NCBI GenBank assembly: GCA_018268465.1
Contig: JAFDWN010000009.1
Coordinates: 1 to 34,028 of the forward strand
Direction of reading: 5' to 3'
Origin: Actinomycetota bacterium
GTDB lineage: Bacteria > Actinomycetota > Actinomycetes > Mycobacteriales > Mycobacteriaceae
Length of the DNA: 34,028 bases
Position numbers and translations under genes: made by a program. The notes beneath the pieces are model-generated. The model was not told where the DNA came from. It worked only from the letters and a program-made list of their open reading frames with translations, and ran no database searches. Positions 82 to 15,413 of this stretch are shown piece after piece; within the stretch, counting starts at the first letter, position 1; every line of letters starts with the position of its first letter.

Positions 82-279
82 CTAAGCGTCTGTCTCCCCG
101 AAGCAGGGTGGGCCCCATAATCCGCGGCCGGCAGTGCGCGCTGACGCTTCGGCCGCGGCGATCTCGCCTGCCCGCTGCGGCGGCCTGGATACATCGAAAA
201 CGTAGCTTCGTGCTGCCCCTGCGGCCGCGGCAAGAACGGAGTAGTCGCCCTGGTCGGTCTCGACGTACGCCAAGGTGCG
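82..279 (-). pseudogene. Secreted thermonuclease, C-terminal half (disrupted)
   Basis: This is the C-terminal part of a staphylococcal-nuclease-like (SNase) protein. It starts at RTLAYVETD, directly after the catalytic-arginine motif, and runs through the helical segment GEIAAAEASARTAGRG to the conserved LWGPPC ending and a TAG stop at 82. The missing N-terminal half is the minus-strand fragment at 15087-15413, so the gene was cut by the integrative element. The open frame continues to 513 into element DNA without a natural gene start, so any product read from there would be an unrelated N-terminus joined to an inactive nuclease tail lacking the catalytic residues. The assignment rests on the rejoined sequence and is firm; expression of the fragment is unlikely. 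Confidence 0.85.
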
Positions 280-291
280 GTTAACTGCAGT
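275..291. other. Left end of integrative element (attachment junction)
   Basis: GTGCG at 275-279 is shared with the right junction and marks the crossover interval. TTAACTGCAGT (281-291) is the left copy of the imperfect terminal inverted repeat. To the left the sequence codes for the thermonuclease tail; to the right it no longer does. Confidence 0.65.
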
Positions 292-381
292 TGGATGATC
301 CACGTGGTGCGGCTGTGCAGGCTCAACTTGTCGGCCGGTGCGTTTAGTCTCCACGCAGATTGAACTTCCGGACCAGGGGCT

Positions 382-1608
382 GTGATGGATGACGGGATCG
401 AACCGAGACTTGTGGAGGTTCTCGATGTCCCGAGGCTTGGTGCGGTCGTTCGCGGCAATGCGGGCTCGTTGCCGTGGCGTTTGGTCGACGAGTCGGGTGC
501 CGGCGTAAACCACGTCAATCTGTGGTTGGCCGACCTGTTCGCGTGCGACAACTCGCCTGCGACGCTGCGCGCCTATGCGTACGACCTACTGAGCTGGAGT
601 CGTTTCCTCGGCGCACTGCAGGTTTCGTGGACTCAGGCAACGCGGGGCGAAGTCCGGGACTGGGTGAGGTGGTACCGGTGTCGCGCGAACCCGCAACGAC
701 GCCGCGGATCGAGTGCGGATACTCATCGGCCGACCCCAGGTTCTGTGAACGAGCGGACGGGCAAGGCCTACCTGGAGTCTTCCTACGCGCGGTCGTCGAT
801 GAATCGCAGACTGTCGTCGCTCAGTGGCTTCTACGAGTTCGCCCTGGAGTCGGATCTCGGGCCGCTCATCAACCCGGTACCGAAATCGCGCGACGATCTC
901 ACTCGACTCGACGTGCACCGCCAGCACTTCGATAACCCGCGCCCCCAAAAGCGCGCGCCTTATCGGCAGAAGCTAGTGGAACGTGCGCCGCGCGCGCTCA
1001 GCGACGACCTGTACGAGGAGGTATTTGCATCGCTGAGAACAAACCGCGACCGTGCCATTGTCGCTACGGCGATCTCCTCTGGTTTACGCGCCAGTGAACT
1101 GCTCAGCATGCGGCGGGGGATGCTCCATGCCGCCGACCAAACCGCCGATGTAATACCCAAGGGCGGGAATGGAAGTCGTGTCATGGTCCGTATCAGTCCC
1201 ACTGCGTATCTCTGGATCGCCCGGTACCTTGCTGAGCGCCCCGTGGGTCCGCCTGAAGAGCCAGTCTGGCTGACATTGCGCGGCACACCGCGGCCGCTGA
1301 GCTATTGGGCAATGCGACAGATCCTTGAACGCAGCAACGCGCTGCTGGGCTCCAACGTCACGATGCATGACTTCCGGCACACCTTCTGCATGCGTCTCGC
1401 CCAGGACGAGAACATGACCATCGCGGAAATGCAGGAGCTGATGCGGCACGCGTCGATCGCCAGCACCACACGCTACCTGCGACCCACCGTAGCCGAACTC
1501 GTCGACAAACTTGATCAGCACTGGAATAGACCCCCGTCACCGCAGCCCACGCCGGCGAAAGGCTATGCGGCAGAAGATCTCCAAGTTCTTTTCGGTCGGG
1601 CATTCTGA
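382..1608 (+). CDS. Tyrosine recombinase/transposase A (Tn554 TnpA-like)
   Basis: Site-specific tyrosine recombinase that probably cuts and rejoins the element ends together with the next gene. The 408-aa protein has an N-terminal SAM-like core-binding region (about residues 45-160) and a C-terminal catalytic domain with the complete active set: R236 in GLRASE, K260, H329-D-F-R332, H356 in LMRHAS, and nucleophile Y365 in TTRYL. Start GTG 382 or the adjacent ATG 385 are both possible; the frame is intact to the TGA at 1606-1608. That stop overlaps the start of the second recombinase by one base, implying translational coupling. It is the first gene inside the left end, as expected for a recombinase next to its own attachment site. 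TnpA-like rather than XerD-like is inferred from the pairing with a much longer second recombinase. Confidence 0.85.
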   Translation: MMDDGIEPRLVEVLDVPRLGAVVRGNAGSLPWRLVDESGAGVNHVNLWLADLFACDNSPATLRAYAYDLLSWSRFLGALQVSWTQATRGEVRDWVRWYRCRANPQRRRGSSADTHRPTPGSVNERTGKAYLESSYARSSMNRRLSSLSGFYEFALESDLGPLINPVPKSRDDLTRLDVHRQHFDNPRPQKRAPYRQKLVERAPRALSDDLYEEVFASLRTNRDRAIVATAISSGLRASELLSMRRGMLHAADQTADVIPKGGNGSRVMVRISPTAYLWIARYLAERPVGPPEEPVWLTLRGTPRPLSYWAMRQILERSNALLGSNVTMHDFRHTFCMRLAQDENMTIAEMQELMRHASIASTTRYLRPTVAELVDKLDQHWNRPPSPQPTPAKGYAAEDLQVLFGRAF

Positions 1609-3986
1609 TGGCGCGGGTGCTCACGCGTGCCCAGTCGCTGGCGAGTTCGTCTGCGTTTGCCAACCATCCAGTCGAAGTACTGCCTTCGCTGTCCCCGACG
1701 CCCGAGGACCATCCGTGGTTCGGAAACACTGTCACCTGCGCCGAACGTGAACGCATCATCACTGCGGGACTTCCGCTCGTGATGGCACGGATGAGTGAGA
1801 AGTACCGCAGCGAGGCAGTAGCCCGCAGCGGTGCACGGCTCTGGCTGAGTCGCCTATTGGACTGGCTGGATGGCTTTGTCGGCGACAGTTATCAAGACCG
1901 TTGGATCGCCAGCGATTCCGATCGCCAGCCGAAGGCGTGGTGCCCAGCCTTATCAACCGGATCGCATACACGGCTTGGGGCAAGGCTGTCGATCAACGCA
2001 CTCATAATGCTGGGGGTCATTCGTCCCGGCCATGACTGGTTGATCGAGAACAAGCAGGCGCGGTTCTACCGTGACTGGACGACCACGCACGAACCGAAGG
2101 CGTGGGATCGCTACTTCGCCGCCGCGGAGCACGAGGGCGCACCGGAAGTGAAGAAATGGCGAACCGCCACCCACCTGGTACGTATCAGCATCTGCAACGG
2201 GCTGCCAATCACCGAGCTGCACAGCCAGCATGTGTTGGCCTACCGAGACTTTCTCGTCTCGACCGGCAGGATGCCGGGGGATCTTCTCGCCATGTGGCAC
2301 TACGGACGCCGCGGCGGACTGTTCGCCGGTGAAGCCGACGACCTGCGGCACTACCTCATCGCCAAACGTCTCAGTCCCACCGAACTGGTCGACCGCTTCA
2401 ATGTGCGAGCTCCCAGCGTGCGAGGACTGTTGATCGCCTACCTCGCCGAGATCGCCGTCGGTCAGGACTACGCCAGCCTGGACGGAACCAGCCGAAACCT
2501 GGTGAAGCTGTTCTGGAAACCGATCGAAGACGCCAACCCCGGCATCGACACAATCAGTTTGACGAAGGCCCAGGCATCCGCCTGGAAAGAGTGGTTGCGC
2601 ACCAAACCGGATGGGACTCCGCGCCGGCACGCCGAGAGCATTCTGGGAGCGGTCCGCAGCTTCTACCTCGACGTGGCTGCCTGGTCCCACGAGGATCCCT
2701 CGACGTGGGCCCATTGGGCTGTCTCATGCCCGGTCAGCATCCGCGACGTCCGAGGCCAGCAGAAGCGCCGGGCCCAGCGGGCACACCGCATGCATGCCCG
2801 CACCCGCACCCTCACCCCGCACGTCGATGCACTCGTCGCTGCAGCCCGGCGGGCGTACGTGCAAGCAGCAGAGCTGCAAGCGGTCGCGACGACAGCGCCG
2901 TTCGGTGAACCGTTCGCCGTGCACGGGAGCACCTACATCAAGCACACACCGGGCAAGCGGGCCGACCGAGTGCGCATCCATGTTCTGCAGGATGGATCGG
3001 AGAAGCGGGTTGACATCCACTACACCGTGACACGGGCCTTCATGACCTGGACGATCATCGAGGTGTTGCGCCACACCGGTATCCGGATCGAAGAGATGCT
3101 GGAGCTGACCCATCTGAGCATCAAGCAGTACCGCAAACCCGATGGCACCGTGATACCGCTCCTGCAGATCGCACCGAGCAAGACCGATCAGGAGCGGATA
3201 TTTCCCTGCAGCCCGGAGTTGACCACCACCTTGGCGCGACTGGTCGAGTTCGTCAGCATCGATGGCCGCGTTCCGCTGTGCTGCCGAATCGACACACAGG
3301 AACGCCAGGTGTCGGCGCCGATGCCGCATCTGATCCAGATCCGAGAGGGTGGACGGTCGCGGGTAATCAACCAGTGCACGGTCCGAAAGTGGTTATCAGA
3401 GCTGGCCAACAGCATGGCCTTGAAGGACGCTGACGGTACTTCGCTGCATTTCACGCCACACGACTTTCGCCGGATCTTCATCACCGACATCGTCAACGCC
3501 GGGTTCCCGATCCATTTGGCCGCAAAGATGGTGGGCCACAACAATATCGAAGTCACGCGCGGCTACACCGCGGTGTATCAGAAAGATGTCTTCGAGGCAT
3601 ATGACCGGTTCATCGACAACCGTAGACAGGCACGGCCATCGGCCGAATACCGTGAGCCCACCCAAGCCGAATGGGACGAGTTCGTCGAACACTTCGGCCA
3701 GCGCCGGATCGCGCTCGGCAATTGCCACCGCCCCTATGGATCTGACTGTTCCCATGAACATGCCTGCATCCGGTGCGATTTCTGCGAGGTTGAACCGGCC
3801 CAGGCCGCAAGGCTCGATGAGATCCGTGACAACCTTCGCCTCCAGGTGGTCGAGGCCCAAAAGAACCGGTGGCTGGGCGACGTTAACCAATTACGCCTCA
3901 CCATTGAGCACGCCGACCGCAAGGCGGCGAGGCTGGCAGCCCTCACCGAGGCGGCCCCGGTACTCCTTGCCGCGCACACGTCCTGA
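1608..3986 (+). CDS. Large tyrosine recombinase/transposase B (Tn554 TnpB-like) with C-terminal Cys cluster
   Basis: Second recombinase of the element, 792 aa, far longer than ordinary XerC/D enzymes (about 300 aa). The catalytic domain lies around residues 475-660: R493 in HTGIRIEE, K525, H618-D-F-R621, H644 in MVGHNN, and Y653 in TRGYTAVY. The first 400 residues form an extended N-terminal region. After the catalytic domain comes a cysteine-rich stretch (C706, C714, C720, C723, C726, with H718), then a basic, charged helical tail; it could bind a metal. A long second recombinase with a C-terminal extension is typical of Tn554-type TnpB and of recombinase pairs or trios in actinobacteria. 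The ATG at 1608 overlaps the upstream stop (TGATG). The active site is complete, so the element may still be mobile. Confidence 0.83.
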   Translation: MARVLTRAQSLASSSAFANHPVEVLPSLSPTPEDHPWFGNTVTCAERERIITAGLPLVMARMSEKYRSEAVARSGARLWLSRLLDWLDGFVGDSYQDRWIASDSDRQPKAWCPALSTGSHTRLGARLSINALIMLGVIRPGHDWLIENKQARFYRDWTTTHEPKAWDRYFAAAEHEGAPEVKKWRTATHLVRISICNGLPITELHSQHVLAYRDFLVSTGRMPGDLLAMWHYGRRGGLFAGEADDLRHYLIAKRLSPTELVDRFNVRAPSVRGLLIAYLAEIAVGQDYASLDGTSRNLVKLFWKPIEDANPGIDTISLTKAQASAWKEWLRTKPDGTPRRHAESILGAVRSFYLDVAAWSHEDPSTWAHWAVSCPVSIRDVRGQQKRRAQRAHRMHARTRTLTPHVDALVAAARRAYVQAAELQAVATTAPFGEPFAVHGSTYIKHTPGKRADRVRIHVLQDGSEKRVDIHYTVTRAFMTWTIIEVLRHTGIRIEEMLELTHLSIKQYRKPDGTVIPLLQIAPSKTDQERIFPCSPELTTTLARLVEFVSIDGRVPLCCRIDTQERQVSAPMPHLIQIREGGRSRVINQCTVRKWLSELANSMALKDADGTSLHFTPHDFRRIFITDIVNAGFPIHLAAKMVGHNNIEVTRGYTAVYQKDVFEAYDRFIDNRRQARPSAEYREPTQAEWDEFVEHFGQRRIALGNCHRPYGSDCSHEHACIRCDFCEVEPAQAARLDEIRDNLRLQVVEAQKNRWLGDVNQLRLTIEHADRKAARLAALTEAAPVLLAAHTS

Positions 3987-4017
3987 CGCGAGCAGTAAGG
4001 GACCGTCCTTCTGACAG

Positions 4018-4377
4018 CTAGGTGCAGCAGTTGGGGTCGAGGACGACGCAGAGTGCCTGCAGGGCTTCGGGTTTGACGCGGTGAAAGACGTTCATGCCGC
4101 GCCGGTCGGAGATCACCAGCCCGGCTTTGCGGAGCTGGCCCAGGTGGTGGCTGACGGTGGATTCACTCAGGTCGAGCACCGCGGCCAGATCGCCGCTGGT
4201 CTCTTCGCCGGGGCGTGAGCTGAACAGCAGCGACATCATCTTGACCCGCACCGGGTCGGCGAGCGCCTTGAGCCGCATCGCGACCTGCAGGGCATCGGCG
4301 TCGCTGATCGGGCCCGCGGCGACCGGGGCGCAGCACACCGGGGCGGACATGTCGATCACGGGCAGCGCTTTGGGCAT
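4018..4377 (-). CDS. arsR: ArsR-family metalloregulator (Rv2640c-like)
   Basis: Winged-helix repressor of the ArsR/SmtB family, 119 aa. The recognition part is around residues 62-85 (DLAAVLDLSESTVSHHLGQL), preceded by the family signature LKALADPVRVKMMSLL. Candidate As(III)-binding thiols are C15-C16 near the N-terminus and C110, C117, C118 at the C-terminus (ending NCCT). The protein closely resembles Rv2640c of M. tuberculosis as recalled, which is likewise divergent from cadI. It is transcribed away from cadI across a 101-bp gap containing two inverted copies of GACATATATC, the probable operator for both genes. Arsenite or cadmium as the inducer is inferred from neighbours. The start is ATG at 4377. 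Confidence 0.88.
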   Translation of the reverse strand: MPKALPVIDMSAPVCCAPVAAGPISDADALQVAMRLKALADPVRVKMMSLLFSSRPGEETSGDLAAVLDLSESTVSHHLGQLRKAGLVISDRRGMNVFHRVKPEALQALCVVLDPNCCT

Positions 4378-4398
4378 GACCCCATCCTGCCACCTGTC

Positions 4399-4455: not shown

Positions 4456-4478
4456 TCATCCCTAGTGGGAGGTCCATC

Positions 4479-4955
4479 ATGTCCCGTATGCAACTCGCCC
4501 TCAACGTCGATGACCTCGACGAGGCGATCACGTTCTACACCAAACTGTTCGGCGTCGACCCCGCCAAGGTCAAGCCCGGCTATGCCAACTTCGCCGTCGC
4601 CGAGCCGCCGCTGAAGCTGGTGCTGCTGGAAAATCCCGGTAAGGGCGGCACCATCAACCACCTCGGCGTCGAGGTCCAATCCAGCGACAAGGTGCACGCC
4701 GAGATCGCCCGCCTGACCGGCGAGGGGCTGTTCACCGATGAGGAGATCGGCACCACGTGTTGCTTCGCCACCCAGGACAAGGTCTGGGTGACCGGGCCGG
4801 CCGGAGAGAAATGGGAGGTCTACACGGTGCTGGCCGACTCCGACACCTTCGGCACCAGCCCACAGCACCTCGACGATTCCGCCGACGGCGAGGGTGGGGT
4901 GTGTTGCGGCGGAGCCTCCAAGGAGGCTGACCCCGCCGCAGCGTCCTGTTGCTAG
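4479..4955 (+). CDS. cadI: CadI/ArsI: vicinal-oxygen-chelate dioxygenase-like C-As lyase or cadmium-inducible protein
   Basis: Glyoxalase/dioxygenase-superfamily protein, 158 aa, matching mycobacterial CadI and the ArsI C-As lyases that demethylate trivalent organoarsenicals. Likely Fe(II) ligands are Q5, H61 and E113, and the vicinal thiols proposed to bind the arsenical are C94-C95 in GTTCCF. Two further cysteine pairs lie in the C-terminal tail (C142-C143 and C157-C158), which could help bind soft metals. GGGAGG at 4467-4472 is a good ribosome-binding site for the ATG at 4479. It is divergent from arsR, sharing the operator region, and followed by a strong hairpin. Whether it works as a lyase or mainly as a Cd/As-inducible binding protein cannot be decided here. 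Confidence 0.88.
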   Translation: MSRMQLALNVDDLDEAITFYTKLFGVDPAKVKPGYANFAVAEPPLKLVLLENPGKGGTINHLGVEVQSSDKVHAEIARLTGEGLFTDEEIGTTCCFATQDKVWVTGPAGEKWEVYTVLADSDTFGTSPQHLDDSADGEGGVCCGGASKEADPAAASCC

Positions 4956-4965
4956 CCGATCGCAC

Positions 4966-4999
4966 CTGCCGCGGCCGTGGTCACATGGCCGCGGCAGGC
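4966..4999 (+). terminator. GC-rich hairpin after cadI
   Basis: CCTGCCGCGGCC (4966-4977) pairs perfectly with GGCCGCGGCAGG (4988-4999) across a 10-nt loop, just after the cadI stop. There is no T-tract, as is common for actinobacterial terminators. It lies before the ATG of the DinB-like gene and may reduce read-through. Confidence 0.5.
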
Positions 5000-5012
5000 G
5001 CATGATCGGGGC

Positions 5013-5525
5013 ATGGACCGCGATGCCATCGCTGCCGATCTGGAGCGCGCGCGTGTCACGTTCCACCAGCTACTGGCGGCCGCCGGCCCCGACGACTGGG
5101 ATGCGCCGACGCGCGGAACCCGGTGGACCAACGAACAATTGCTGTTCCACATGGTGTTCGGCTACGTGGTCGTGCAGCGGCTGCTGCCCCTGGTGCGGGT
5201 GATGGGCCGACTACCTGACCGCGTCAGCGGGGCATACGCCCGGTTGCTCAACGCCGCGACCACGCCGTTTCATCAAATCAACTACTACGGATCATGCGCC
5301 GCCGCCATGGTCTACAACCGGCGCAGGATGGGCGCCAAACTCGACCGGGTCATCGACTCACTGCAACACCGGCTCGCCCGCGAGACCGACGACACCCTGC
5401 GGCGCGGCATGCATTTCCCGCCGGGATGGGATCCGTTCTTCTCCGACTACATGACGCTGGAAGACGTCTACCGCTACCCCGGGCGCCACTTCGACTTCCA
5501 CGCCGCCCAACTCACCTTCACCTGA
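5013..5525 (+). CDS. DinB/MDMPI-like four-helix protein
   Basis: A 170-aa protein of the DinB/YfiT-like fold, a superfamily of putative metal-dependent thiol (mycothiol or bacillithiol) transferases. Probable metal ligands are H46 in the helix LLFHMVFGY and H159 and H163 in the C-terminal RHFDFH motif, giving the usual His triad. RWTNEQLLFH near residue 38 is the typical DinB opening helix motif. The ATG at 5013 is chosen because an upstream in-frame GTG (4977) lies inside the hairpin following cadI. It sits between cadI and the acr3 operon in the same direction, so a mycothiol-linked role in arsenic detoxification is plausible. That role is inference; the family includes many uncharacterised members. 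Confidence 0.75.
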   Translation: MDRDAIAADLERARVTFHQLLAAAGPDDWDAPTRGTRWTNEQLLFHMVFGYVVVQRLLPLVRVMGRLPDRVSGAYARLLNAATTPFHQINYYGSCAAAMVYNRRRMGAKLDRVIDSLQHRLARETDDTLRRGMHFPPGWDPFFSDYMTLEDVYRYPGRHFDFHAAQLTFT

Positions 5526-5568: not shown

Positions 5569-5943
5569 ATGTCGAAGTCGCAGGAGTCGTTGACCGACGG
5601 GGACGCGTGCTGCCCACCCGGGGCGCTGCTGCGCGAACCCCTTACCGCCGCGGACGCGGCGGACATGGCGGTCAAACTCAAAGCGCTGGCCGATCCGGTA
5701 CGCCTGCAGCTGTTCTCCGCGATCGCCAGCCACGCCGGTGGTGAGGCCTGCGTCTGCGACATCTCCGCCGACATCGAGGTGTCACAACCGACCATCAGCC
5801 ACCACCTCAAAGTGCTGCGCGACGCCGGGCTACTGACCTCACAGCGCCGGGCCTCCTGGGTGTACTACGCCGTGGTGCCCGACGCGCTGGCCAGCCTCGC
5901 CGTCCTGTTCGGCATTGACGCAGCCGCCGGGGTGTCGGCATGA
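5569..5943 (+). CDS. arsR: ArsR-family repressor of the acr3-arsC operon (Rv2642-like)
   Basis: ArsR/SmtB winged-helix repressor, 124 aa. Features in order are N-terminal C14-C15, the LKALADPVRLQLFSAI signature, the CVCDIS motif with C61 and C63 at the start of the DNA-binding region, and the recognition helix region QPTISHHLKVLRDAGLL (about 74-90). CVCD is the classic As(III)-sensing motif of ArsR, and C14-C15 may add a third thiolate. It resembles Rv2642 as recalled. Its stop overlaps the acr3 ATG (ATGA at 5940-5943), so it is the first gene of arsR-acr3-arsC and should autoregulate that operon. A palindrome directly upstream is the likely operator. Confidence 0.9.
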   Translation: MSKSQESLTDGDACCPPGALLREPLTAADAADMAVKLKALADPVRLQLFSAIASHAGGEACVCDISADIEVSQPTISHHLKVLRDAGLLTSQRRASWVYYAVVPDALASLAVLFGIDAAAGVSA

Positions 5944-7058
5944 CCGACACCACCACCCCGGCCCCAGCGGTCGTGGGCAAGCTCTCCACCCTGGATCGGT
6001 TCCTGCCGCTGTGGATCGGCGCGGCGATGGTCGCCGGGTTGCTGCTGGGCCGCTGGGTTCCCGGCTTGAACACCGCGCTGGAAAGCGTTCAGCTGGACGG
6101 GATTTCACTACCCATCGCTCTTGGCCTGCTCATCATGATGTACCCGGTGCTGGCCAAGGTCCGCTACGACCGCCTCGACACCGTCACCGGCGACCGCAAG
6201 CTGCTGCTGTCCTCACTGGTCCTGAACTGGGTGCTCGGCCCCGCGCTGATGTTCGCGCTCGCGTGGCTGCTGCTGCCCGACCTGCCCGAATACCGGACCG
6301 GCCTGATCATCGTCGGCCTGGCCCGCTGCATCGCCATGGTCATCATCTGGAACGACCTGGCCTGCGGCGACCGGGAAGCCGCCGCCGTCCTCGTGGCGCT
6401 CAACTCGATCTTCCAGGTCATCATGTTCGCCCTGCTGGGCTGGTTCTATCTGTCGGTGCTGCCCGGCTGGCTCGGCCTGGAACAGACCACCATCGACACC
6501 TCCCCGTGGCAGATCGCCAAGTCCGTGCTCATATTTCTGGGCATCCCGCTGCTGGCCGGCTACCTGTCGCGCCGGCTCGGCGAGAAAACCAAGGGCCGTG
6601 ACTGGTACGAGGCCAAGTTCCTGCCCCGGATCGGGCCGTGGGCGCTCTACGGGCTGCTGTTCACTATCGTGATTCTCTTTGCGCTGCAAGGCGACCAGAT
6701 CACCCACCAACCGTTCGACGTCGCCCGCATCGCCCTGCCGCTACTAGCGTACTTCGCGATCATGTGGGGCGGAGGCTACCTGCTCGGCACCATGCTCGAT
6801 CTCGGTTATGAGCGCACCACCACCCTGGCGTTCACCGCCGCGGGCAACAACTTCGAACTCGCCATCGCCGTCGCGATCGCCACCTACGGCGCCACCTCCG
6901 GCCAAGCCCTGGCCGGCGTCGTCGGCCCGTTGATCGAAGTCCCGGTCCTGGTCGGGTTGGTCTACGTGTCCTTGGCGTTGCGCAACCGGTTCCACCACCA
7001 CACCTCCCAACACCTTCCTGCCGACGGCTCGACGACGAGAACGGAACCCAATCCATGA
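5940..7058 (+). CDS. acr3: ACR3 arsenite efflux permease
   Basis: Polytopic inner-membrane arsenite exporter of the ACR3 (BART) family, 372 aa, with about ten hydrophobic segments. The essential thiol and family signature are visible at C130 in GLARCIAMVIIWNDLACGD, and the conserved glutamate in the discontinuous helix is E306 in AGNNFELAIA. It expels As(OH)3 made by the arsenate reductases encoded immediately downstream, using the proton gradient. Its start overlaps arsR and its stop overlaps arsC (both ATGA). In M. tuberculosis, as recalled, Rv2643 carries permease and reductase domains in one chain, whereas here they are separate genes. Confidence 0.93.
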   Translation: MTDTTTPAPAVVGKLSTLDRFLPLWIGAAMVAGLLLGRWVPGLNTALESVQLDGISLPIALGLLIMMYPVLAKVRYDRLDTVTGDRKLLLSSLVLNWVLGPALMFALAWLLLPDLPEYRTGLIIVGLARCIAMVIIWNDLACGDREAAAVLVALNSIFQVIMFALLGWFYLSVLPGWLGLEQTTIDTSPWQIAKSVLIFLGIPLLAGYLSRRLGEKTKGRDWYEAKFLPRIGPWALYGLLFTIVILFALQGDQITHQPFDVARIALPLLAYFAIMWGGGYLLGTMLDLGYERTTTLAFTAAGNNFELAIAVAIATYGATSGQALAGVVGPLIEVPVLVGLVYVSLALRNRFHHHTSQHLPADGSTTRTEPNP

Positions 7059-7723
7059 CTGACAGCCCCGTCACCCACGAGCTTCGCCACGATCTGTCCA
7101 TCGACCAGCAACTCGCCCTGAAAACCGCGGCGACCCGGCTGGGCGGTGAGTTCGATGGCACCTTCGGTACCGAAACCATCGAACGGTTCTTGCATTCGTC
7201 CTACGACCAGTTCGCCGGCCGGGCCACCATTCCGAACTTCCTGCCGCTGTTGGCCGAACGGTTCGCCCGCCAACGCCTGCACGCCCTGGCGAGAGTGGAA
7301 GGAAAGATCAGCGACGGCAAACCGACCGTGTTGTTCCTGTGCACCCACAACGCCGGCCGCTCGCAGATGGCGCTGGGCTACTTCACCCACCTGGCCGGTG
7401 ACCGGGCCGTCGCCTGGTCCGGTGGATCCGAACCCGGCAACGAGATCAACCCCGCCGCGATCGCTGCCATGCACGAAGTCGGTATCGACATCACTGGCGA
7501 ATACCCCAAACCCTGGACCGACGAAATTGTGCAGGCGGCCGACGTCGTCATCACCATGGGCTGCGGGGACGCCTGCCCGATCTTCCCCGGGAAACGCTAC
7601 GAGAACTGGGAACTGCCCGACCCCGCCGGCCAGGGCCTCGACGCCGTCCGCCCGATCCGCGACGACATCGAAGAACGCGTCCACCGTTTGTTGGCCGACC
7701 TGAACGTGCCCGTCACCCGGTAG
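7055..7723 (+). CDS. arsC: Arsenate reductase ArsC (LMW-PTP fold, three-cysteine type) with N-terminal helical domain
   Basis: Reduces arsenate to arsenite for export by ACR3. The catalytic domain begins near residue 90 with P-loop C96-THNAG-R102-S, the CX5R motif of the low-molecular-weight phosphatase fold. C170 and C174 in GCGDACP are the relay thiols, and D189-P190 supplies the general acid. This three-Cys pattern is characteristic of thioredoxin-coupled ArsC. Residues 1-85 form an additional helical domain found in actinobacterial ArsC proteins; its role is unknown. Length is 222 aa versus about 130 for the bare domain. It is the third gene of the overlapping arsR-acr3-arsC operon. Confidence 0.9.
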   Translation: MTDSPVTHELRHDLSIDQQLALKTAATRLGGEFDGTFGTETIERFLHSSYDQFAGRATIPNFLPLLAERFARQRLHALARVEGKISDGKPTVLFLCTHNAGRSQMALGYFTHLAGDRAVAWSGGSEPGNEINPAAIAAMHEVGIDITGEYPKPWTDEIVQAADVVITMGCGDACPIFPGKRYENWELPDPAGQGLDAVRPIRDDIEERVHRLLADLNVPVTR

Positions 7724-8527: not shown

Positions 8528-10507
8528 TCAGCTGGCTGCCGTGGTCTTCTGGTTGCGGGTGTGGGCCAGCCGGTGGGAGTCGGTTCCGGTTTCGATGATG
8601 GTGCCCCCGAGGGGCTTGGTGCGTCCGGCGCGCACGCCGTTGGCGATGACGACGATTTCGGCGAGTTCGTGCACCGCGACGACCGCGGCCAGCCCGAGGA
8701 CACCGGTGAGGGCGAGCGGAATGAGCACCGTAATCAATGCCAGTGAGAGGCCGACGTTTTGCAGCATGATCCGCCTCGCGCGCCGCGCGTGGGCCAGTGC
8801 TTGGGTGAGGTGGCGCAGGTCTTCACCCATCAGCGCGACGTCGGCGGTTTCGATGGCCACGTCGGTGCCCATCGCGCCCATGGCGATACCCAAATCGGCA
8901 GTGGCCAGGGCCGGGGCGTCGTTGACGCCGTCACCGACCATGGCCGTCGAGGAACGTTGGCGCATTTGACCAATTAGCGCGGCTTTGTCTTCGGGCCGCA
9001 GATCGGCATGCACGACCTCGATGCCCACCTGCTTGGCCAATGCGTGGGCGGTCGCTTGGTTGTCACCGGTGAGCATGGCCACCTGATACCCGCCGCGGCG
9101 CAGCTGGGCGACGACGTGGGCGGCTTCGGGCCGCAGCTCATCGCGCACCGCGACTGCCCCGATGATCTGGTCGTTGTCTTCGATGAGCACGGCGGTGGCG
9201 CCGGCGGCCTGCATGGCCGCGACCTGGCCGGCCAGCGGGCCGGGGTCAAGCCAGCCGGGGCGGCCCAGCCGCAATCGACGGCCATCCCGCGCGCCGGTCA
9301 ACCCGGCACCGGTGACCGCCTGCACGTCATCAGCCGGTTGCACGGGGCCCTGCGCGGCGGCGAGAATCGCTGCCGCGAGGGGGTGTTCGCTGCGGGCCTC
9401 CAACGCCGCCGCCACATCCAGCACGTGCTCGCGGGTGGCGCCGTTGGTGGTGGCGACGTCGATGACGGTGGGTGCGTTGGCGGTCAGGGTGCCTGTCTTG
9501 TCCAGCGCGATCGTGCGGACCGCGCCCAGGGCTTCCAGCGCCGCCCCGCCCTTGACCAAGACACCGAGCTTGCTAGCCGCGCCGATCGCGGCGACCACCG
9601 TGACCGGCACCGAGATCGCCAGCGCGCAAGGAGAGGCCGCCACCAACACCACCAGGGCACGTTCGATCCACACCAGCGGATCGCCCAACACGCTGCCGAT
9701 GGCGGCGATGAGGACCGCGGCGATCATGATCGCGGGGACCAGGGGTTTGGCGATGCGGTCGGCCAGGCGCTGGGCTTCGCCCTTGCGGGACTGCTCGGCC
9801 TCCACGATCGCCACGATGCGGGCCAACGAGTTGTCAGCAGCAGTGGACGTGACCTCAACCTCCAGCACGCTGGTGCCGTTGATCGACCCGGCGAACACCT
9901 CATCACCGGGCCCGGCCTCTACCGGCACGGATTCGCCGGTGATGGCCGAAACATCCAGCGCCGTGCGCCCCGACACGATCGTGCCGTCGGTGGCGACGCG
10001 TTCGCCGGGCTTGACCAGCATCCGGTCACCCACCGCCAACTCTGCTGGGGCGATGGTGGTTTCGGTACCGTCGCGGAGCACGGTGGCCTCATCGGGCACC
10101 AGCGACAACAACGCCCGCAGACCTCGGCGGGTGCGGGCGAGGGAGTATTCTTCGAGGCCCTCGCTGATGGAGAACAGGAACGCCAGCATGGCGGCCTCGC
10201 CGACCTCGCCGAGGATCACCGCGCCGACCGCGGCGATCGTCATCAGCGTGCCGACCCCGATCTTGCCCTGCGCCAGCCGGCGCAGCGTCGAAGGCACGAA
10301 CGTGTAGGCACCGATCACCAAGGCGAGCGCATACAGGCCGATTTCGACCGCATGGGGGCCGCCGGACCAGCCGACCACATAGCCGGCCAAAAGCACCACG
10401 CCCGCCACCGCGGCGGCGCGCAGTTCGGTGATCTCCCAAAGCCGTTCGGGTTCCTGCTCGTCCTCGCCGGGGCGGTCGTCGCTGCCGCAGCCGCACGCCT
10501 CACTCAT
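8528..10507 (-). CDS. Heavy-metal P1B-type ATPase with SPC metal-site motif
   Basis: Metal-exporting P-type ATPase, 659 aa, in the cytoplasmic membrane. Visible motifs are TGES (190-193) in the actuator domain, the transmembrane metal site SPC (292-294), phosphorylation site D336-KTGT, HP at 375-376 in the nucleotide domain, and GDGVNDAP (525-532). The final helix carries H613-E614. Eight membrane segments are visible. The short N-terminus has only C5, C7 (EACGCG) and no HMA domain. SPC rather than CPC, with HE in the last helix, recalls the P1B-4 class, which handles Co, Cd or Zn; I cannot fix the metal. It overlaps the upstream CmtR-like regulator by ATGA, so the two are co-expressed, and that sensor argues for Cd/Pb. 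Confidence 0.87.
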   Translation of the reverse strand: MSEACGCGSDDRPGEDEQEPERLWEITELRAAAVAGVVLLAGYVVGWSGGPHAVEIGLYALALVIGAYTFVPSTLRRLAQGKIGVGTLMTIAAVGAVILGEVGEAAMLAFLFSISEGLEEYSLARTRRGLRALLSLVPDEATVLRDGTETTIAPAELAVGDRMLVKPGERVATDGTIVSGRTALDVSAITGESVPVEAGPGDEVFAGSINGTSVLEVEVTSTAADNSLARIVAIVEAEQSRKGEAQRLADRIAKPLVPAIMIAAVLIAAIGSVLGDPLVWIERALVVLVAASPCALAISVPVTVVAAIGAASKLGVLVKGGAALEALGAVRTIALDKTGTLTANAPTVIDVATTNGATREHVLDVAAALEARSEHPLAAAILAAAQGPVQPADDVQAVTGAGLTGARDGRRLRLGRPGWLDPGPLAGQVAAMQAAGATAVLIEDNDQIIGAVAVRDELRPEAAHVVAQLRRGGYQVAMLTGDNQATAHALAKQVGIEVVHADLRPEDKAALIGQMRQRSSTAMVGDGVNDAPALATADLGIAMGAMGTDVAIETADVALMGEDLRHLTQALAHARRARRIMLQNVGLSLALITVLIPLALTGVLGLAAVVAVHELAEIVVIANGVRAGRTKPLGGTIIETGTDSHRLAHTRNQKTTAAS

Positions 10508-10881
10508 CGCGCAACCTTCTTCCGCTCAGTCGGGTGGCCGTAGTTGGGGCACAACGCCACCGCGTTGCCGGTGGCCTCCAAGACAGCTTCGGCGGCCCGC
10601 AACATGTCCAGTAGTTCCGGGCGGGCCAGCCGATACACCGAGGCGCGGCCCTGCGGCCGGAAATCCACCAGCCCGCAGTCGCGCAGGCACGCCAGATGCG
10701 CCGACACCGTCGACTGCGCCAACCCCAACTCGCCGGTCAGATCCACCACCCGCGCCTCACCGACCGCCAGCCGGCGCAGGATCGCCAACCGGGTGCCATC
10801 CGAGAGGCTGTGAAACAACGCCGTCGCCGCATCCACATTCCCGCACATCGCGGGATCGACCGAACCACTTTTCATCGCCAC
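10504..10881 (-). CDS. CmtR-like ArsR-family Cd/Pb sensor
   Basis: ArsR/SmtB repressor, 125 aa. The DNA-binding helix is QSTVSAHLACLRDCGLV (about 56-72), and the CLRDC pair inside it corresponds to the Cys57/Cys61 pair known to bind Cd/Pb in M. tuberculosis CmtR. A third thiol is in the C-terminal LCPNYGH, similar in placement to CmtR Cys102. It is translationally coupled to the ATPase gene (ATGA overlap). GTG at 10881 is used because a good -10 box ends 7 nt upstream, which predicts a leaderless mRNA starting at that codon; ATG 10875 is an alternative. It is divergent from the methyltransferase cluster, so it may regulate both directions. Confidence 0.82.
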   Translation of the reverse strand: MAMKSGSVDPAMCGNVDAATALFHSLSDGTRLAILRRLAVGEARVVDLTGELGLAQSTVSAHLACLRDCGLVDFRPQGRASVYRLARPELLDMLRAAEAVLEATGNAVALCPNYGHPTERKKVAR

Positions 10882-10918: not shown

Positions 10919-10991
10919 CCCCGCCAACATCGATACAACCCGATGGATGAGGACGCAGGGCGGGGACGGGCCGACCGGGAAGGAGCAGGCG

Positions 10992-11630
10992 ATGGCACTG
11001 ACTGCACTGGGCCTGTTCGCGATGTTGATGCTGGTGATCGGGGCCTGTCGGCGCCGGATCCAGCTGGCCCGCATCGGCGACAGCGGCAACCGGCGGGGTT
11101 GGCGGCCCGACGGCACCCTGGAATGGTGGGCGCTCGCGCTCGCCGACGTGGGCTATCTGCTGGTCGGCGTCGGCGCCCCAGCGGCGGCCCTGGCCGGGCT
11201 CGCCCCACTGCGTTTCGCCGACCATCTGCTGGTTCATGCGACTGGGATCGCGGTTGCGGTGGTGGGCATCGGGCTGACCTTGCAGGCCCAGCTGGGGTTG
11301 GGGGCCTCGTGGCGGATCGGGGTTGATGAGACCGAACGCACCGAGCTGGTCACCGGCGGCCCGTTCGCGATTGTGCGCAACCCGATCTTCACCACACTGC
11401 TGCTCACCCTGACCGGCCTGACGCTGATGGTGCCCAACCCGATAGCGATCGCCGGCCTGCTGATCGCGATCGCCGGCATCCAGCTGCAGGTGCGCGAAGT
11501 GGAAGAGCCCTACCTGCGCCGCGTCCACGGCCACACCTACCGCGACTACACCACCCGAGTGGGGCGCTTCCTACCGTGGCTCGGCCGCACCAGAGATGAG
11601 ACCAATGATGCTGCCCGACACTACACCTGA
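10992..11630 (+). CDS. Isoprenylcysteine carboxyl methyltransferase-like membrane protein (copy 1)
   Basis: Integral-membrane protein of the ICMT/PEMT-like family, 212 aa. An N-terminal hydrophobic helix (ALTALGLFAMLMLVIGA) and further segments precede the conserved C-terminal core: SWRIGVDE, RNPIF, EEPYLRRVHG and YRDYTTRVGRFLP. In ICMT enzymes the RHPxY/RNPxY region and the final EE motif form the SAM pocket; here RNPIFT and VEEPYL are visible. AGGAG at 10981-10985 supports ATG 10992. Its last 35 bp overlap the cyclase gene. A second copy at 13693-14304 shares these motifs. Bacterial ICMT-like proteins rarely have known substrates; the context suggests a metal-linked role, which is inference. 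Confidence 0.78.
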   Translation: MALTALGLFAMLMLVIGACRRRIQLARIGDSGNRRGWRPDGTLEWWALALADVGYLLVGVGAPAAALAGLAPLRFADHLLVHATGIAVAVVGIGLTLQAQLGLGASWRIGVDETERTELVTGGPFAIVRNPIFTTLLLTLTGLTLMVPNPIAIAGLLIAIAGIQLQVREVEEPYLRRVHGHTYRDYTTRVGRFLPWLGRTRDETNDAARHYT

Positions 11631-12309
11631 CTTCGACACGGTCGAGGCGACGGCGGCGTTTGTCGACCTGGCCGGCTACAGCATCCTCACCGAAATCTGC
11701 GGCGACCACGAAGCCGCCCAGCTCGCCGCGCGGCTTGCCGACCTGGCACAGGCTGCACTACAACCGGGCGTGAGGCTGGTGAAGACGATCGGGGACGCGG
11801 TCATGTTGACCGCCGACACACCCACCCAGATGCTGGCCACCCTCACCGACCTGGCAGAGCAGGTCGCCGGCGAGGACGGGTTCCTGGCGCTGCGCGCCGG
11901 AATCCATCACGGACCCGTCATCGCCCGCGGCGGCGACGTGTTCGGCCACACCGTCAACATCGCCGCCCGCATCACCGCACTCGCCGGGGCCGGCCACGCC
12001 GTGATCACCGACCCGATCGCGGCTGCCGCTACCCGACAAGGCCTGTCCACCCCAGCGATCGGTGCTCCGCCGCTGCGCAGCATCACCACCCCGATTCCGC
12101 TACACACGCTGGCCCTGACCGAGGCCCGCTACCCCCGCGACCCGGTCTGCGGCATGCGGATCAACCCGGAAACCGCCCGGGCGCGACGCCGCTACCAGGA
12201 CCGGGATTGGTGGTTCTGCTCGACCGACTGCGCCCACCAATTCACCACCACCCCAAGCACTTACACATCGACACTCCCGGTCACCGCCAGTGAACGGCAG
12301 CCGACATGA
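11596..12309 (+). CDS. Class III nucleotide cyclase fused to a YHS metal-binding domain
   Basis: A 237-aa two-domain protein. Residues about 18-175 are a class III cyclase catalytic domain: metal aspartates D24 (FVDLAGYS) and D67 (TIGDAVM), adenine-selecting K63 and D114 (GDVFG), and transition-state N121 and R125 (VNIAARI). All key residues are present, so it should make cAMP, most likely as a homodimer. Residues about 182-223 are a YHS domain (DPVCGMRINPE ... WWFCSTDC) with C185, C208 and C212, a small domain common in metal-transport proteins. The pairing suggests a cytosolic cyclase controlled by a soft metal. It overlaps the upstream ICMT gene by 35 bp and the next methyltransferase by ATGA. 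ATG 11605 or 11608 are alternative starts. Confidence 0.82.
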   Translation: MRPMMLPDTTPDFDTVEATAAFVDLAGYSILTEICGDHEAAQLAARLADLAQAALQPGVRLVKTIGDAVMLTADTPTQMLATLTDLAEQVAGEDGFLALRAGIHHGPVIARGGDVFGHTVNIAARITALAGAGHAVITDPIAAAATRQGLSTPAIGAPPLRSITTPIPLHTLALTEARYPRDPVCGMRINPETARARRRYQDRDWWFCSTDCAHQFTTTPSTYTSTLPVTASERQPT

Positions 12310-12950
12310 GCCGCCCCTGGGGCCGCAACCGGCTCAAATTCGCCCTGGCCGGACCGCTGTTCGAAGCCGGCAACCGGTTCATCCCCGGCCGACCCCATGA
12401 CCGGCTCGCCCAGCTCGTCGCCGACCAGAAACCGAAACGAGTGCTCGAACTGTGCGGCGGCACCGGCTACGCCGCCCGCCTGCTCGCCCGCAAATCCCCG
12501 AGCACACGAGTGGATTGCCTCGACATCTCCCCGGAAATGCTGGCCGTCGGCCGCCGCTACCTCACCCGCGCCGGGATCGGTACCGTGGCGCTGCATGAAG
12601 GTGACGCCGCCGCACTGCCGTTCGGCAATGACACCTTCGACGTGGTGATGAGCGTGTTCGGCTGGCACGAACTGCCCACCGACATCCGCCACCGCGCCAT
12701 CGACGAAGCCATCCGCGTTCTACGTCTCGCCGGCCAGGTCATCGCCATCGACCTCGACCCACCACCCACCGCCCGCACCATCTTCGAGACCTACATGCGG
12801 CTCGCCGAACGACCCCACGCCCGCGACGTCCTGGGCACCGGCCTGGCCGACGCATTCACCGCACACGGACTGGCCGTCACCACCCATCTGCCCGCGCGCA
12901 GCTGGGCCGCCCCGTTCCAGATCGTCCACGCCCACAAAAGAGGTATCTGA
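12306..12950 (+). CDS. Class I SAM-dependent methyltransferase (copy 1)
   Basis: Soluble Rossmann-fold methyltransferase, 214 aa. Motif I is VLELCGGTGYAARLL (about residues 46-60), followed by the acidic ribose contact CLDIS, then GDAAALPF and the motif IV-like FDVVMSVFGWHEL. The closest general type is UbiE/methyltransf_11. Cysteines are few (in ELCGG and VDCLD), so it lacks the conserved cysteine set of arsenite methyltransferase ArsM. Its start overlaps the cyclase gene (ATGA) and its stop abuts the DsbA-like gene, so it is embedded in one transcription unit. The substrate is unknown; membrane lipid or thiol conjugate are guesses from its neighbours. Confidence 0.8.
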   Translation: MSRPWGRNRLKFALAGPLFEAGNRFIPGRPHDRLAQLVADQKPKRVLELCGGTGYAARLLARKSPSTRVDCLDISPEMLAVGRRYLTRAGIGTVALHEGDAAALPFGNDTFDVVMSVFGWHELPTDIRHRAIDEAIRVLRLAGQVIAIDLDPPPTARTIFETYMRLAERPHARDVLGTGLADAFTAHGLAVTTHLPARSWAAPFQIVHAHKRGI

Positions 12951-13613
12951 ATGGCGCGCACCAGCCGCATCCTGCTCACCGCGTTCGTCATCGCCGCCAT
13001 GGCGATCGGGGCGCTGGTCTACCTGTCAGTGCGCGACCGCGACTCGACCACCACGGCACAGCCCGATACCGGCGAGGCCGGGCAGGTGGTGCGCGAGAAC
13101 AGCCACCGACTCAACACGGTGCCCGACAGCACGGTGACGTTCGTGGAGTTTCTCGACTTCGAATGCGAGGGCTGCCGCGCGGTCTACCCAGAGATCGAAA
13201 AAGCGCGGGCCGAATACGGCGACCGGGTGAATTTCGTGATCCGCTACTTCCCGCTGCAAGCCCACGTCAACGCCGAGCGGGCCGCCCGCGCGGTGGAAGC
13301 CGCCGCCCAGCAAGGCCAACTGGAGGCGATGTATCGCAAAATGTATGACACCCAAGCCCAGTGGGGTGAAAAGCAAACCCCAGCCGATGACGTATTCCGC
13401 GGATTCGCAACAGAACTCGGCCTGGACATGGCCGAGTTCGACGCGGCCTACGCCAATCCCGCCACCCTCGAACGCATCCAACTCGACATGGCCGACGGCC
13501 GCGCCTTGGGCGTGCAGGGCACCCCGACCTTCTTCCTCAACGACACCCGCATCCAGCCACACAGCTATGAAGACCTAGCCCAGGCCTTCGATCAAGCGCT
13601 CGCCGAGAACTAG
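12951..13613 (+). CDS. Membrane-anchored DsbA-like thiol oxidoreductase
   Basis: A 220-aa protein with an N-terminal signal anchor (RILLTAFVIAAMAIGALVYL, residues 6-25) and an extracytoplasmic DsbA/thioredoxin fold. The active site is C72-EG-C75 in FLDFECEGCRAVYP, and the cis-proline loop is GVQGTPTFFLN near the C-terminus. The helical insertion between them (about 95-165) is typical of DsbA relatives. ATG 12951 follows directly on the TGA of the methyltransferase, with AGAGG upstream, so it is co-translated. It would oxidise or isomerise thiols outside the membrane; in this cluster it may protect envelope thiols from soft metals. The fold is clear but the client is unknown. Confidence 0.87.
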   Translation: MARTSRILLTAFVIAAMAIGALVYLSVRDRDSTTTAQPDTGEAGQVVRENSHRLNTVPDSTVTFVEFLDFECEGCRAVYPEIEKARAEYGDRVNFVIRYFPLQAHVNAERAARAVEAAAQQGQLEAMYRKMYDTQAQWGEKQTPADDVFRGFATELGLDMAEFDAAYANPATLERIQLDMADGRALGVQGTPTFFLNDTRIQPHSYEDLAQAFDQALAEN

Positions 13614-13692
13614 GCGCGGCCTGCCGCATCCATCGGCTTGACCGCCCCTCTCCACATCGACACTCATCTCAGTCCGGCCAGGAGGTTCACCC

Positions 13693-14304
13693 ATGCCCGC
13701 CACCGCGCTCGTTCTCTACCTGGTCTTTGCCGTCTTAGGGTTCGGCTGGCGCAGCTGGACCCAGCACCGCCGCACCGGCTCGACCGGGTTTCGCGGCATC
13801 CACGGCCGGCCTGGCTCGCTGGAATGGTTCGCCGGCGCCGGATTCATCGCTGCCATCCTCGCCGGGGCGGCCGCACCGCTGCTGCAACTGCTCGGCATCC
13901 TCACCCCGATCGCGCTCCTGCAGGCGCCGTGGATTCAGGTGGGCGGGACGGTGCTGGCGGTGGCGGGTATCGCGGCCACCCTCTACGCCCAGCGCGACAT
14001 GGGCGAGTCCTGGCGGATTGGCGTCGACCCCAGTGAGACCACCACATTGGTGCTCCGTGGTGTGTTCGGGCTGGTGCGCAACCCCATCTTCACCGCGATG
14101 CTGATCTTCGCCGCCGGCATCACCCTGATGACCCCCAACCCGCTCGCCCTGGTCGCGTTCGTCGTGCTGCTGGCCACCATCGAGCTGCAGGTCCGCGTCG
14201 TCGAAGAGCCCTATCTCAACGCTATCCACGGCCAGGCCTACCGGGACTACTGTGAGACGGTCGGCCGGTTTGTTCCCCACATCGGACGCACCCGAATCGT
14301 CTGA
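13693..14304 (+). CDS. Isoprenylcysteine carboxyl methyltransferase-like membrane protein (copy 2)
   Basis: A 203-aa paralogue of the protein at 10992-11630, with the same arrangement: N-terminal membrane helices, then SWRIGVDPSE, RNPIFTAML, MTPNPLAL, VVEEPYLNAIHG and YRDYCETVGRFVPHIGRTR. The shared C-terminal half is nearly collinear between copies, while the N-terminal helices have diverged, so the duplication is not recent. AGGAGGT at 13680-13686 gives a strong ribosome-binding site for ATG 13693. It is followed 26 bp later by a second SAM methyltransferase, repeating the ICMT-then-methyltransferase order of the first half of the cluster. The substrate is unknown. Confidence 0.78.
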   Translation: MPATALVLYLVFAVLGFGWRSWTQHRRTGSTGFRGIHGRPGSLEWFAGAGFIAAILAGAAAPLLQLLGILTPIALLQAPWIQVGGTVLAVAGIAATLYAQRDMGESWRIGVDPSETTTLVLRGVFGLVRNPIFTAMLIFAAGITLMTPNPLALVAFVVLLATIELQVRVVEEPYLNAIHGQAYRDYCETVGRFVPHIGRTRIV

Positions 14305-14330
14305 CTGGCCGACTCGAATCGAGGTGAACC

Positions 14331-14960
14331 ATGGCCACCGGTGATCGCACCGCCCGATGGAACCGATACTGGGACAAGAAATCCCGTACCTACGACCGCG
14401 AAATCGGATTCTTTGACCGCCACCTGTTCGGCGACTCCCGCCAATGGGTCTGCAGCCAAGCGGCCGGCACCACCCTGGAAGTCGCCGTCGGCACCGGCCT
14501 CAACCTCGAGTTCTACCCCGACACCGTCACGCTGACCGGGATCGACTGGAGCGAACAGATGCTCGACCTGGCTCGTCAACGTGCCGCCGACCTCGGCCAC
14601 CCCGCCACGCTGCAACAAGCCGACGCCCACCACCTACCGTTCGACGACGCCACCTTCGACACCGTCGTCTGCACCTTCGGGCTCTGCGCCATCCCCGACC
14701 ACACCAAAGCCCTCAACGAAATGACCCGCGTCCTGCGCCCCGGCGGACAACTCATCCTGGTCGATCACATCCGCAGCAGCGTCGCCCCCGCCCGAGCCGT
14801 GCAACGCTTCCTCGAACTGTTCACCGTTCCCCTCGGCGGCGAACACTTCCTGCGCCGCCCCCTCAACCACATCCGCAACGACCCCAACCTCGACATCGAA
14901 CGCGTCGAACGCTTCAAACTCGGCCTCGTCGAACGCCTCACCGCCCGCAAACCCACGTAA
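14331..14960 (+). CDS. Class I SAM-dependent methyltransferase (copy 2, UbiE/PmtA-like)
   Basis: Soluble methyltransferase, 209 aa. RYWDKKSRTYDREIGFFDR at the N-terminus is characteristic of UbiE/phospholipid N-methyltransferase relatives. The SAM site follows: motif I LEVAVGTGLNLEFYP, acidic GIDWSEQML, ADAHHLPF, and the post-motif LRPGGQLILVDHI. The C-terminal FLRRPLNHIRNDPN is a further match to that group. GAGGTGA before the ATG is a good ribosome-binding site. It is the last gene of the element before the right end; the next 110 bp hold no gene. Lipid or small-molecule methylation is possible but not shown. Confidence 0.8.
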   Translation: MATGDRTARWNRYWDKKSRTYDREIGFFDRHLFGDSRQWVCSQAAGTTLEVAVGTGLNLEFYPDTVTLTGIDWSEQMLDLARQRAADLGHPATLQQADAHHLPFDDATFDTVVCTFGLCAIPDHTKALNEMTRVLRPGGQLILVDHIRSSVAPARAVQRFLELFTVPLGGEHFLRRPLNHIRNDPNLDIERVERFKLGLVERLTARKPT

Positions 14961-15074
14961 CCCGAGGCGAACTCACCGACCATCCAGCTAGAGCTGTCCC
15001 ACATCAACAGCTCAGCCGCGCCCTCGAAGGCTCCAAAGACTCCGACTGATGACCGGCCCCGGTGAACGGATTGA

Positions 15075-15413
15075 CTAGTGCAGATAAGTGCGTCCGTAGC
15101 GGTCGTGGGCATCCTGGCTCGCATCAGTGACCAGCGCGACCCGACGATTCAGCAGTGTCGCTGTCGCGAACTCCGTCGCCTGACGGCCCCAGCACTCCTC
15201 GGTGCCTTTCGTCTCGGGGGTGTCGATGCCGAGAACGCGCACCCGCAGCCGTCCGCGAGCGTCGTCGACCACGTCGATCGTGTCGCCGTCGACGACGCGA
15301 AGCACGGTCGCTGTTGCGTCCGCACTGGCCGCCGGGGCGGCGCAGGCCGATGCGGGGGCGGCCAACATCGCAGTCGCACCCACGGTCAGGACGGAAGCTA
15401 AAGATGGTCTCAT
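15075..15413 (-). pseudogene. Secreted thermonuclease, N-terminal half (disrupted)
   Basis: N-terminal portion of a secreted SNase-like thermonuclease. Residues 1-30 form a signal peptide (VLTVGATAMLAAPASA). The nuclease core follows: VVDGDTIDVVD, then R59 in RVLGIDTPE with E67, C74-W-G-R, and DRYGR with R108. R59, E67 and R108 match the catalytic R35, E43 and R87 of staphylococcal nuclease by spacing. The frame ends three codons after DRYGRT in element DNA, so the last beta strand and C-terminal helix are missing; they lie at 82-279. The rejoined protein would be 172 aa. It lies 56 bp downstream of the XRE-like gene on the same strand, probably once one operon. The truncated product would probably be unstable and inactive. 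Confidence 0.87.
15077..15092. other. Right end of integrative element (attachment junction)
   Basis: GTGCG at 15088-15092 matches the left junction. Read inward on the minus strand, TTATCTGCACT (15087-15077) matches the left-end TTAACTGCAGT at 9 of 11 positions. Nuclease coding homology stops here: the frame gains only YLH and a TAG at 15075-15077. Confidence 0.65.

Follow-up and report, generated by a model that had tools for sequence, protein, structure and literature searches.

A thermonuclease gene split at its catalytic arginine codon

What has split a mycobacterial thermonuclease gene exactly at a catalytic codon, and does it do so elsewhere? The question is raised by a 34,028-bp stretch of Mycobacteriaceae DNA (JAFDWN010000009.1; hereafter the window), which is contig C72 of a genome assembly with 72 contigs totalling 6.88 Mb. 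On its minus strand, a gene for an SNase-type thermonuclease (SNase) lies in two parts, the 5' part at 15413-15088 and the 3' part at 274-82. Between them, at 275-15087, is an element of 14,813 bp with arsenic and cadmium resistance genes, and the break falls directly after the codon for the catalytic arginine. This element is very probably a transposon of the actinobacterial, Tn554-related type, which works through tyrosine recombinases and takes the SNase gene as its specific attachment site.

Both halves are recognizable in the open reading frames (ORFs). The minus-strand ORF at 15413-15075 has a translation that ends in DAHDRYGRTYLH before the stop codon, while that at 279-82 begins with RTLAYV and ends in GLWGPPCFGETDA. 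The Pfam SNase profile matches the 5' half at positions 1-52 with 28.3 bits (cut-off 21) and the 3' half at positions 48-105 with 20.2 bits, slightly below the cut-off. Residues R59, E67 and R108, counted on the translated protein, lie where an earlier note on this DNA had placed them, and we take them to be catalytic by analogy with the Staphylococcus aureus nuclease. We judged the continuity of the gene on natural element-free SNase genes rather than on the joined halves of the window. Such genes run uninterrupted across the site in, for example, M. crocinum, M. chubuense, M. rufum and M. madagascariense. The ORFs, the Pfam matches and these natural genes together bear out the split after the arginine codon that the earlier note had described. 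Its own counter-suggestion, that the halves might be separate full-length genes elsewhere, proved not to be so: natural relatives hold both in one gene. We infer that the insertion inactivates the SNase.

The limits of the element were set by comparison with 17 other copies. An insert of about 14.8 kb, as first proposed, was correct. The GTGCG that occurs twice (275-279 and 15088-15092) had been taken as the joint of the two halves, and this part did not hold, since the left copy is borne by the element and the right one belongs to the target (see below).

The same codon boundary is occupied in many SNase alleles

In a plasmid collection, M. gilvum pMSPYR101 and a plasmid of M. vanbaalenii JOB5 were the two records matching the window at 95-99% identity. 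Their elements are identical to that of the window at 14763/14770 and 14758/14770 positions, respectively. Identity falls at the element ends, and the SNase flanks of these copies are only about 60-70% identical to those of the window (198/288 and 209/346 for M. gilvum). With the element's long recombinase as query, genome contigs yielded 11 loci at 88-100% identity. In 10 of these the element separates the SNase codons for D-x-Y-G-R from those for T-L-x-Y, with some right ends on separate contigs. When 396 genomes of the genus were searched, 59 had a match at E <= 1e-100, and 16 of these carry a recombinase of this clade (86-100%). The search added copies in genomes G427, G662 and G598 to one found earlier in G457, and all four sit at the same site in SNase. 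Two candidate stretches on viral contigs were unrelated to the element.

Altogether, 18 copies could be delimited at both ends, with a long recombinase (in the TnpB position) 88-100% identical to that of the window. Of these, 17 split an SNase gene between the same two codons (D-x-Y-G-R / T) and have one orientation. Base-exact junctions in 17/18 copies rule out chance or an annotation artefact. The earlier note had suggested that the element targets the conserved DRYGR motif and that other thermonuclease genes might carry it at the same codon. Both ideas are upheld by these copies, which occupy 14 SNase alleles, and by the scatter of interrupted alleles in the SNase tree. Most copies are on plasmids or on contigs below 1 Mb. 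Those of G427 and G598 are on contigs of 5.7 and 6.2 Mb and are probably chromosomal.

The copies form three subgroups. Subgroup I, to which the window belongs, is 99.9% identical to the window over shared parts and 14.1-16.1 kb long, with full-length copies at 99.91-99.95%. Subgroup II (852002, M. vinylchloridicum and M. wolinskyi; 15,133, 15,133 and 7,628 bp) is about 85% identical and has rearranged cargo. Two of its copies are identical at 15129/15133 positions, yet their flanks are 65-68% identical. Subgroup III (G457 and G598, with a copy outside SNase in Mycolicibacterium sp. BiH015) has a TnpB 88% identical to that of the window and a length of 18.7-21 kb. In the M. wolinskyi copy, the smallest element, the long recombinase is in two overlapping pieces (G279:C12 107177-109551), which suggests a frameshift.

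A 6-bp target with element-borne bases on the left

The inner ends of the element, TTAACTGCA and TGCAGATAA, are inverted repeats that agree at 8 of 9 positions, and 6 bp lie outside each. The target is not duplicated, since the left 6 bp differ from the right 6 bp in most alleles. At a cut of 97% identity, the 17 SNase copies represent 13 left and 14 right SNase alleles. The left 6 bp read GTGCGG in 11/13 left alleles (subgroups I and II) and GTCCTG in the other two (subgroup III). The right 6 bp occur in seven versions among the 14 right alleles, with GTGCGG in 4/14. In element-free genes GTGCGG is native in 7/14, so that drawing it from targets 11 times in 11 would have p ~5e-4; these 14 genes were picked by hand, leaving out scarred and more distant ones. 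Because the left 6 bp are fixed per subgroup, unlike a sample of targets, and the right 6 bp resemble such a sample, we conclude that the former are carried by the element and the latter contributed by the target. In the window, GTGCGG at 275-280 is thus the element's, and GTGCGT at 15088-15093 is best read as the target's. By our own reading, the GTCCTG of subgroup III would encode G-R-T with an AGG arginine codon, as if it had been captured from an SNase gene.

Variation in the target is confined to the motif's wobble positions; in 10 alleles the right side reads GT[GCTA]CG[N]CC[GA]TA... On the alleles compared, the shared feature of the sites was shown to be the codon pattern of a conserved protein motif, with wobble positions free. 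This suggests that the element recognizes the DNA of that motif.

The opposite polarity, with the left 6 bp taken from each target and the right 6 bp brought from the previous donor, has precedent. In strand-biased circularizing integrative elements (SEs), as passages of PMC10214605 and PMC9345347 describe, the target's 6 bp go to the intA-proximal end (left, attL) and the donor's to the other (attR), and the same rule is ascribed there to Tn554-related elements. It would also accord with GTGCGG being native in half of the listed element-free genes. The alleles themselves make this polarity unlikely here: GTGCGG stands in 11/11 left alleles of subgroups I and II, GTCCTG in 2/2 of subgroup III, and seven right versions are impossible from donors whose left 6 bp are GTGCGG.

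The element entered SNase genes many times

A uniform element at one site could also descend from a single ancient insertion in an ancestral SNase, after which the flanks drifted apart and recombination among the elements preserved their uniformity. Recombination within the element does happen. The M. gilvum and M. vanbaalenii copies have identical left SNase flanks (278/278) and differ on the right (216/343); that M. vanbaalenii shares the left flank alone is most simply explained by a swap of backbones through recombination inside the element.

The phylogeny of the targets argues strongly against a single event. Our tree of the SNase 5' half holds 10 interrupted, 17 element-free and 2 scarred rows. 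Four of 23 element-free genes lacked a usable row and were dropped, the later copies from G427, G662, G457 and G598 are outside the tree, and an upstream frameshift restricts the M. vanbaalenii row to its 40 final residues. Interrupted alleles intermingle with element-free ones rather than cluster: they need 9 label changes, of which starred branches force at least 4, and 410/500 shuffles gave a count as low. A single clade of interrupted alleles was rejected (approximately unbiased test, p = 8.1e-9). In addition, the right alleles are 63-83% identical to one another, and the three subgroups differ in cargo order, length (7.6-18.7 kb) and left 6 bp, yet sit at the same site. Since the interrupted alleles are unclustered and a single clade is rejected, we conclude that the element entered SNase many times, and we regard one ancient insertion as very improbable.

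Still less credible is a hot spot in the plasmid backbone with the codon incidental, for although M. gilvum, M. vanbaalenii, M. poriferae and the window do share a neighbourhood of WhiB, regulator and lytic transglycosylase genes, the junctions are base-exact in 17/17 SNase copies, two copies (G427 and G598) lie on 5.7- and 6.2-Mb contigs, and other kinds of SNase allele are also targeted (those of wolinskyi, 852002 and CR10).

Structure of the element

The features of the window element and its SNase flanks, with the basis of each assignment, are as follows.

82..274, minus: SNase 3' half, codons after the insertion, (T)LAYV...GLWGPPCFGETDA and stop (ORF translation, Pfam)
275..15087, plus: Tn554-related element with arsenic/cadmium cargo, 14,813 bp (ends compared with 17 other copies)
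275..280, plus: left 6 bp GTGCGG, element-borne (allele comparison)
281..289, plus: left terminal motif TTAACTGCA (sequence; imperfect inverted repeat, 8/9, of the right motif)
382..1608, plus: short tyrosine recombinase in the TnpA position, 408 aa (Pfam PF00589, PF02899)
1608..3986, plus: long tyrosine recombinase in the TnpB position, 792 aa (Pfam PF00589)
4018..4377, minus: cargo, ArsR-type regulator (library match; Rv2640c family annotation in the M. gilvum copy)
4479..4955, plus: cargo, ArsI/CadI metalloenzyme (NF041414)
4977..5525, plus: cargo, DinB family protein (library match)
5569..5943, plus: cargo, ArsR-type regulator (library match)
5940..7058, plus: cargo, ACR3 arsenite efflux transporter (TIGR00832)
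7055-7723 and 7754-8221, plus: cargo, two LMWP-type arsenate reductase-like genes (library match; ArsC annotation in the M. gilvum copy)
8528..10507, minus: cargo, heavy-metal (Cd-family) P-type ATPase (TIGR01512/TIGR01525)
10504..10881, minus: cargo, ArsR/SmtB regulator (library match)
10947..14960, plus: cargo, two ICMT-like methyltransferases, a cyclase/YHS protein, two SAM methyltransferases and a DsbA-like thioredoxin (library match)
15079..15087, plus: right terminal motif TGCAGATAA (comparison of copies)
15088..15093, plus: right 6 bp GTGCGT, probably the target's own; minus-strand codons for G-R-T (allele comparison)
15088..15413, minus: SNase 5' half to the catalytic-arginine codon, with a signal-peptide-like start; the ORF continues 4 codons into the element (ORF translation, Pfam)

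The genes for the 408-aa and 792-aa recombinases are adjacent, run in the same direction and overlap at ATG. The catalytic residues R236/H329/R332/H356/Y365 of the short recombinase are kept in 31-34 of 32-34 aligned relatives, and R493/H618/R621/H644/Y653 of the long one in 36/36. At the other end, TTGACTA[A/G] precedes the right terminal motif in 18/18 copies. The cargo includes in total three ArsR-type regulators, two ArsC-like proteins of phosphatase fold, several methyltransferases and accessory genes. Among the 18 scanned ORFs of the element, none encodes transfer or mobilization functions of its own, as an integrative conjugative or mobilizable element would, and none has DUF6262; the TnpC of M. 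chimaera gave a best E of 0.28 in the three elements searched, where a very divergent TnpC could escape.

Relation to known transposons

Tn554 of Staphylococcus requires TnpC and targets radC (att554). In the respects covered by the accounts we drew on, the window element resembles it in having two tyrosine recombinases, site specificity for a protein gene, no target duplication and a 6-bp footprint at the junctions. It differs in its lack of a recognized TnpC, in its SNase target and in an apparently reversed 6-bp polarity.

A closer fit is the actinobacterial group of Tn554-related elements of Van Houdt et al. 2012 (PMC3414803), which according to the part of that paper on them have one long (611-828 aa) and one normal recombinase, lie mostly on plasmids and in some cases lack TnpC. 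The window element shares with this group the adjacent short and long recombinases and the absence of a recognized TnpC, and its recombinases have homologs among the members: the short one is 36.7%, 37.4% and 40.0% identical to those of NC_008270, NC_008697 and NC_008537, and the long one 35.9%, 36.1% and 36.2% identical to those of NC_008697, NC_008537 and NC_007491, all from the subset without TnpC. These data place the element in this class. Where the same part of PMC3414803 mentions possible attB sites it names none and gives no target, in contrast to the single SNase codon used here.

SEs, as far as PMC10214605 and PMC9345347 are concerned in the parts consulted, likewise carry a short and a long recombinase gene on the left, end in imperfect inverted motifs, have a 6-bp spacer and insert in protein genes that are orthologs of one another. 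For SE-6283-like elements these are bcp orthologs (PMC9345347), so docking in a conserved protein gene is already known in kind. SEs are elements of Gammaproteobacteria with four core genes (intA, tfp, intB and srap), whereas the actinobacterial element here has two recombinase genes followed by cargo (srap and tfp profiles themselves were not searched) and places the target's 6 bp on the right. Among open-licence PMC papers, we found no report of an SNase target for such an element.

Much of the same metal cargo occurs in M. chimaera (NZ_LT703506; 88.6% identity over 53% of the query) behind two tyrosine recombinases of a TnpA-TnpB-TnpC(DUF6262) element. These recombinases are remote relatives of those in the window (TnpB: best E 1e-8), and TnpC is present, unlike in the window element. 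Related cargo behind a different recombinase pair indicates that the cargo changed vehicles. The source genome of the window itself holds a second, distant recombinase pair of the same class (C25:1333-4867; 41% and 34% identity).

Element-free loci and observations that weigh against the proposal

The syntenic locus of M. poriferae pJCM12603 (WhiB, regulator, SNase and lytic transglycosylase) is free of the element. So is contig C180 of M. pyrenivorans, which from position 1744 onward is 99.95-99.97% identical to window positions 15091-25553, while its left flank is only 82% identical over 276 bp; the backbones diverge exactly at the insertion site.

Several observations count against an SNase-specific transposon. 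Both of these element-free relatives have small frameshifting indels at the site, so that the window's own locus was nowhere found both empty and intact. The earlier expectation of a continuous gene at this locus in element-free relatives therefore stands for the presence of SNase and fails for its continuity, although intact open SNase genes occur at other loci. The 17 insertions in SNase are not all independent: UBA43 and UBA35 have both flanks in common, the trio M. gilvum, M. pyrenivorans and M. chlorophenolicum likewise, and M. vanbaalenii agrees with that trio on the left alone. One of the 18 copies, that of Mycolicibacterium sp. BiH015 (about 21 kb, TnpB 88% identical; C1:560573-581725 on a 0.81-Mb contig), is not in SNase: its neighbour is a mobF relaxase gene, and its outer 6 bp read GTCTTG on the left and GATGGA on the right. 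Its genome has no match to the 5' half of the window's SNase. The left flank of this copy matches the mobF relaxase end of many plasmids, none of which covers 80% of the query, and the right flank has no match in plasmids. In G587 there is a tnpB remnant with no recognizable ends within the 20 kb examined. Among relatives with TnpA at 33-44% identity, 0/18 fetched stretches matched SNase when queried with the window halves and the M. pyrenivorans C180 gene, a search that a very divergent SNase could escape. The idea that the whole transposon class targets SNase was rejected on this result, and the preference is a property of this clade. Finally, transposition and a circular form are inferred from the comparison of sequences.

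Three further element-free SNase genes (G188, G348 and G524) also have small frameshifting indels at the same site, and two more are damaged elsewhere, by a frameshift in Ca. M. methanotrophicum and an in-frame stop in M. gallinarum. The five indels at the site, drawn from a non-systematic sample of assembled contigs, could be scars left by excision or by an abortive insertion. SNase itself is patchy, with a Pfam match in 67/401 genomes of the family.

A hint of a joined form comes from CR10 (contigs C2, C27, C33 and C46). There, the element contigs stop exactly at the 6-bp core at both ends, with a 78-base overlap with two SNase contigs. Each element end is on two contigs only, one of these through the overlap alone. 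A short unreported edge joining both ends, from a circle or a tandem copy, would explain the contig breaks. SEs form circular copies that leave no empty donor site; for the element here, this assembly pattern is the one hint bearing on that trait.

A model for insertion

In the SNase-directed transposition that we favour, the short and long recombinases would act on the terminal motifs TGCAGATAA and TTAACTGCA and on a 6-bp target, GTNCGN, within the G-R-T codons of SNase, where R is the catalytic arginine. The circular intermediate would hold TGCAGATAA and TTAACTGCA around a 6-bp spacer. Insertion would proceed without target duplication, the element's 6 bp going to the left junction and the target's remaining on the right, as the comparison of alleles shows; the order of the strands is conjectural. 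Each insertion would interrupt an SNase gene and spread arsenic and cadmium resistance among mycobacterial plasmids and some chromosome-sized contigs.

A bolder version is possible, if rather doubtful: the clade would use the catalytic-arginine codon of SNase as a universal dock on mycobacterial replicons, moving through a copy-out circle with reversed polarity; the 6 bp captured from an SNase gene (GTGCGG or GTCCTG) would have become fixed at the left end; and, with small indels remaining at the site after attempted insertion or loss, the scarred SNase pseudogenes would record past visits.

For the large TnpC-less actinobacterial group, the proposed transposon would supply a target, precisely mapped ends and 14 natural target alleles as a test panel, which makes specificity, tolerance of mismatches in the 6-bp core and the direction of strand transfer directly testable. 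It is a plain example of a mobile element fitted to the codon pattern of a catalytic motif, which lets one recombinase use alleles only 63-83% identical. The presence of one arsenic/cadmium resistance block in many mycobacterial species would be explained as well.

Other features of the window

Two features lie in the window beyond the element. Three ORFs at 25945-31849 resemble, by reading of their translations, a type I restriction-modification system (HsdM, HsdS and HsdR). At 16839-16884 there are two tandem, near-identical 22-bp repeats beginning GGCGCGGATATCCGCGCC, each of them palindromic.

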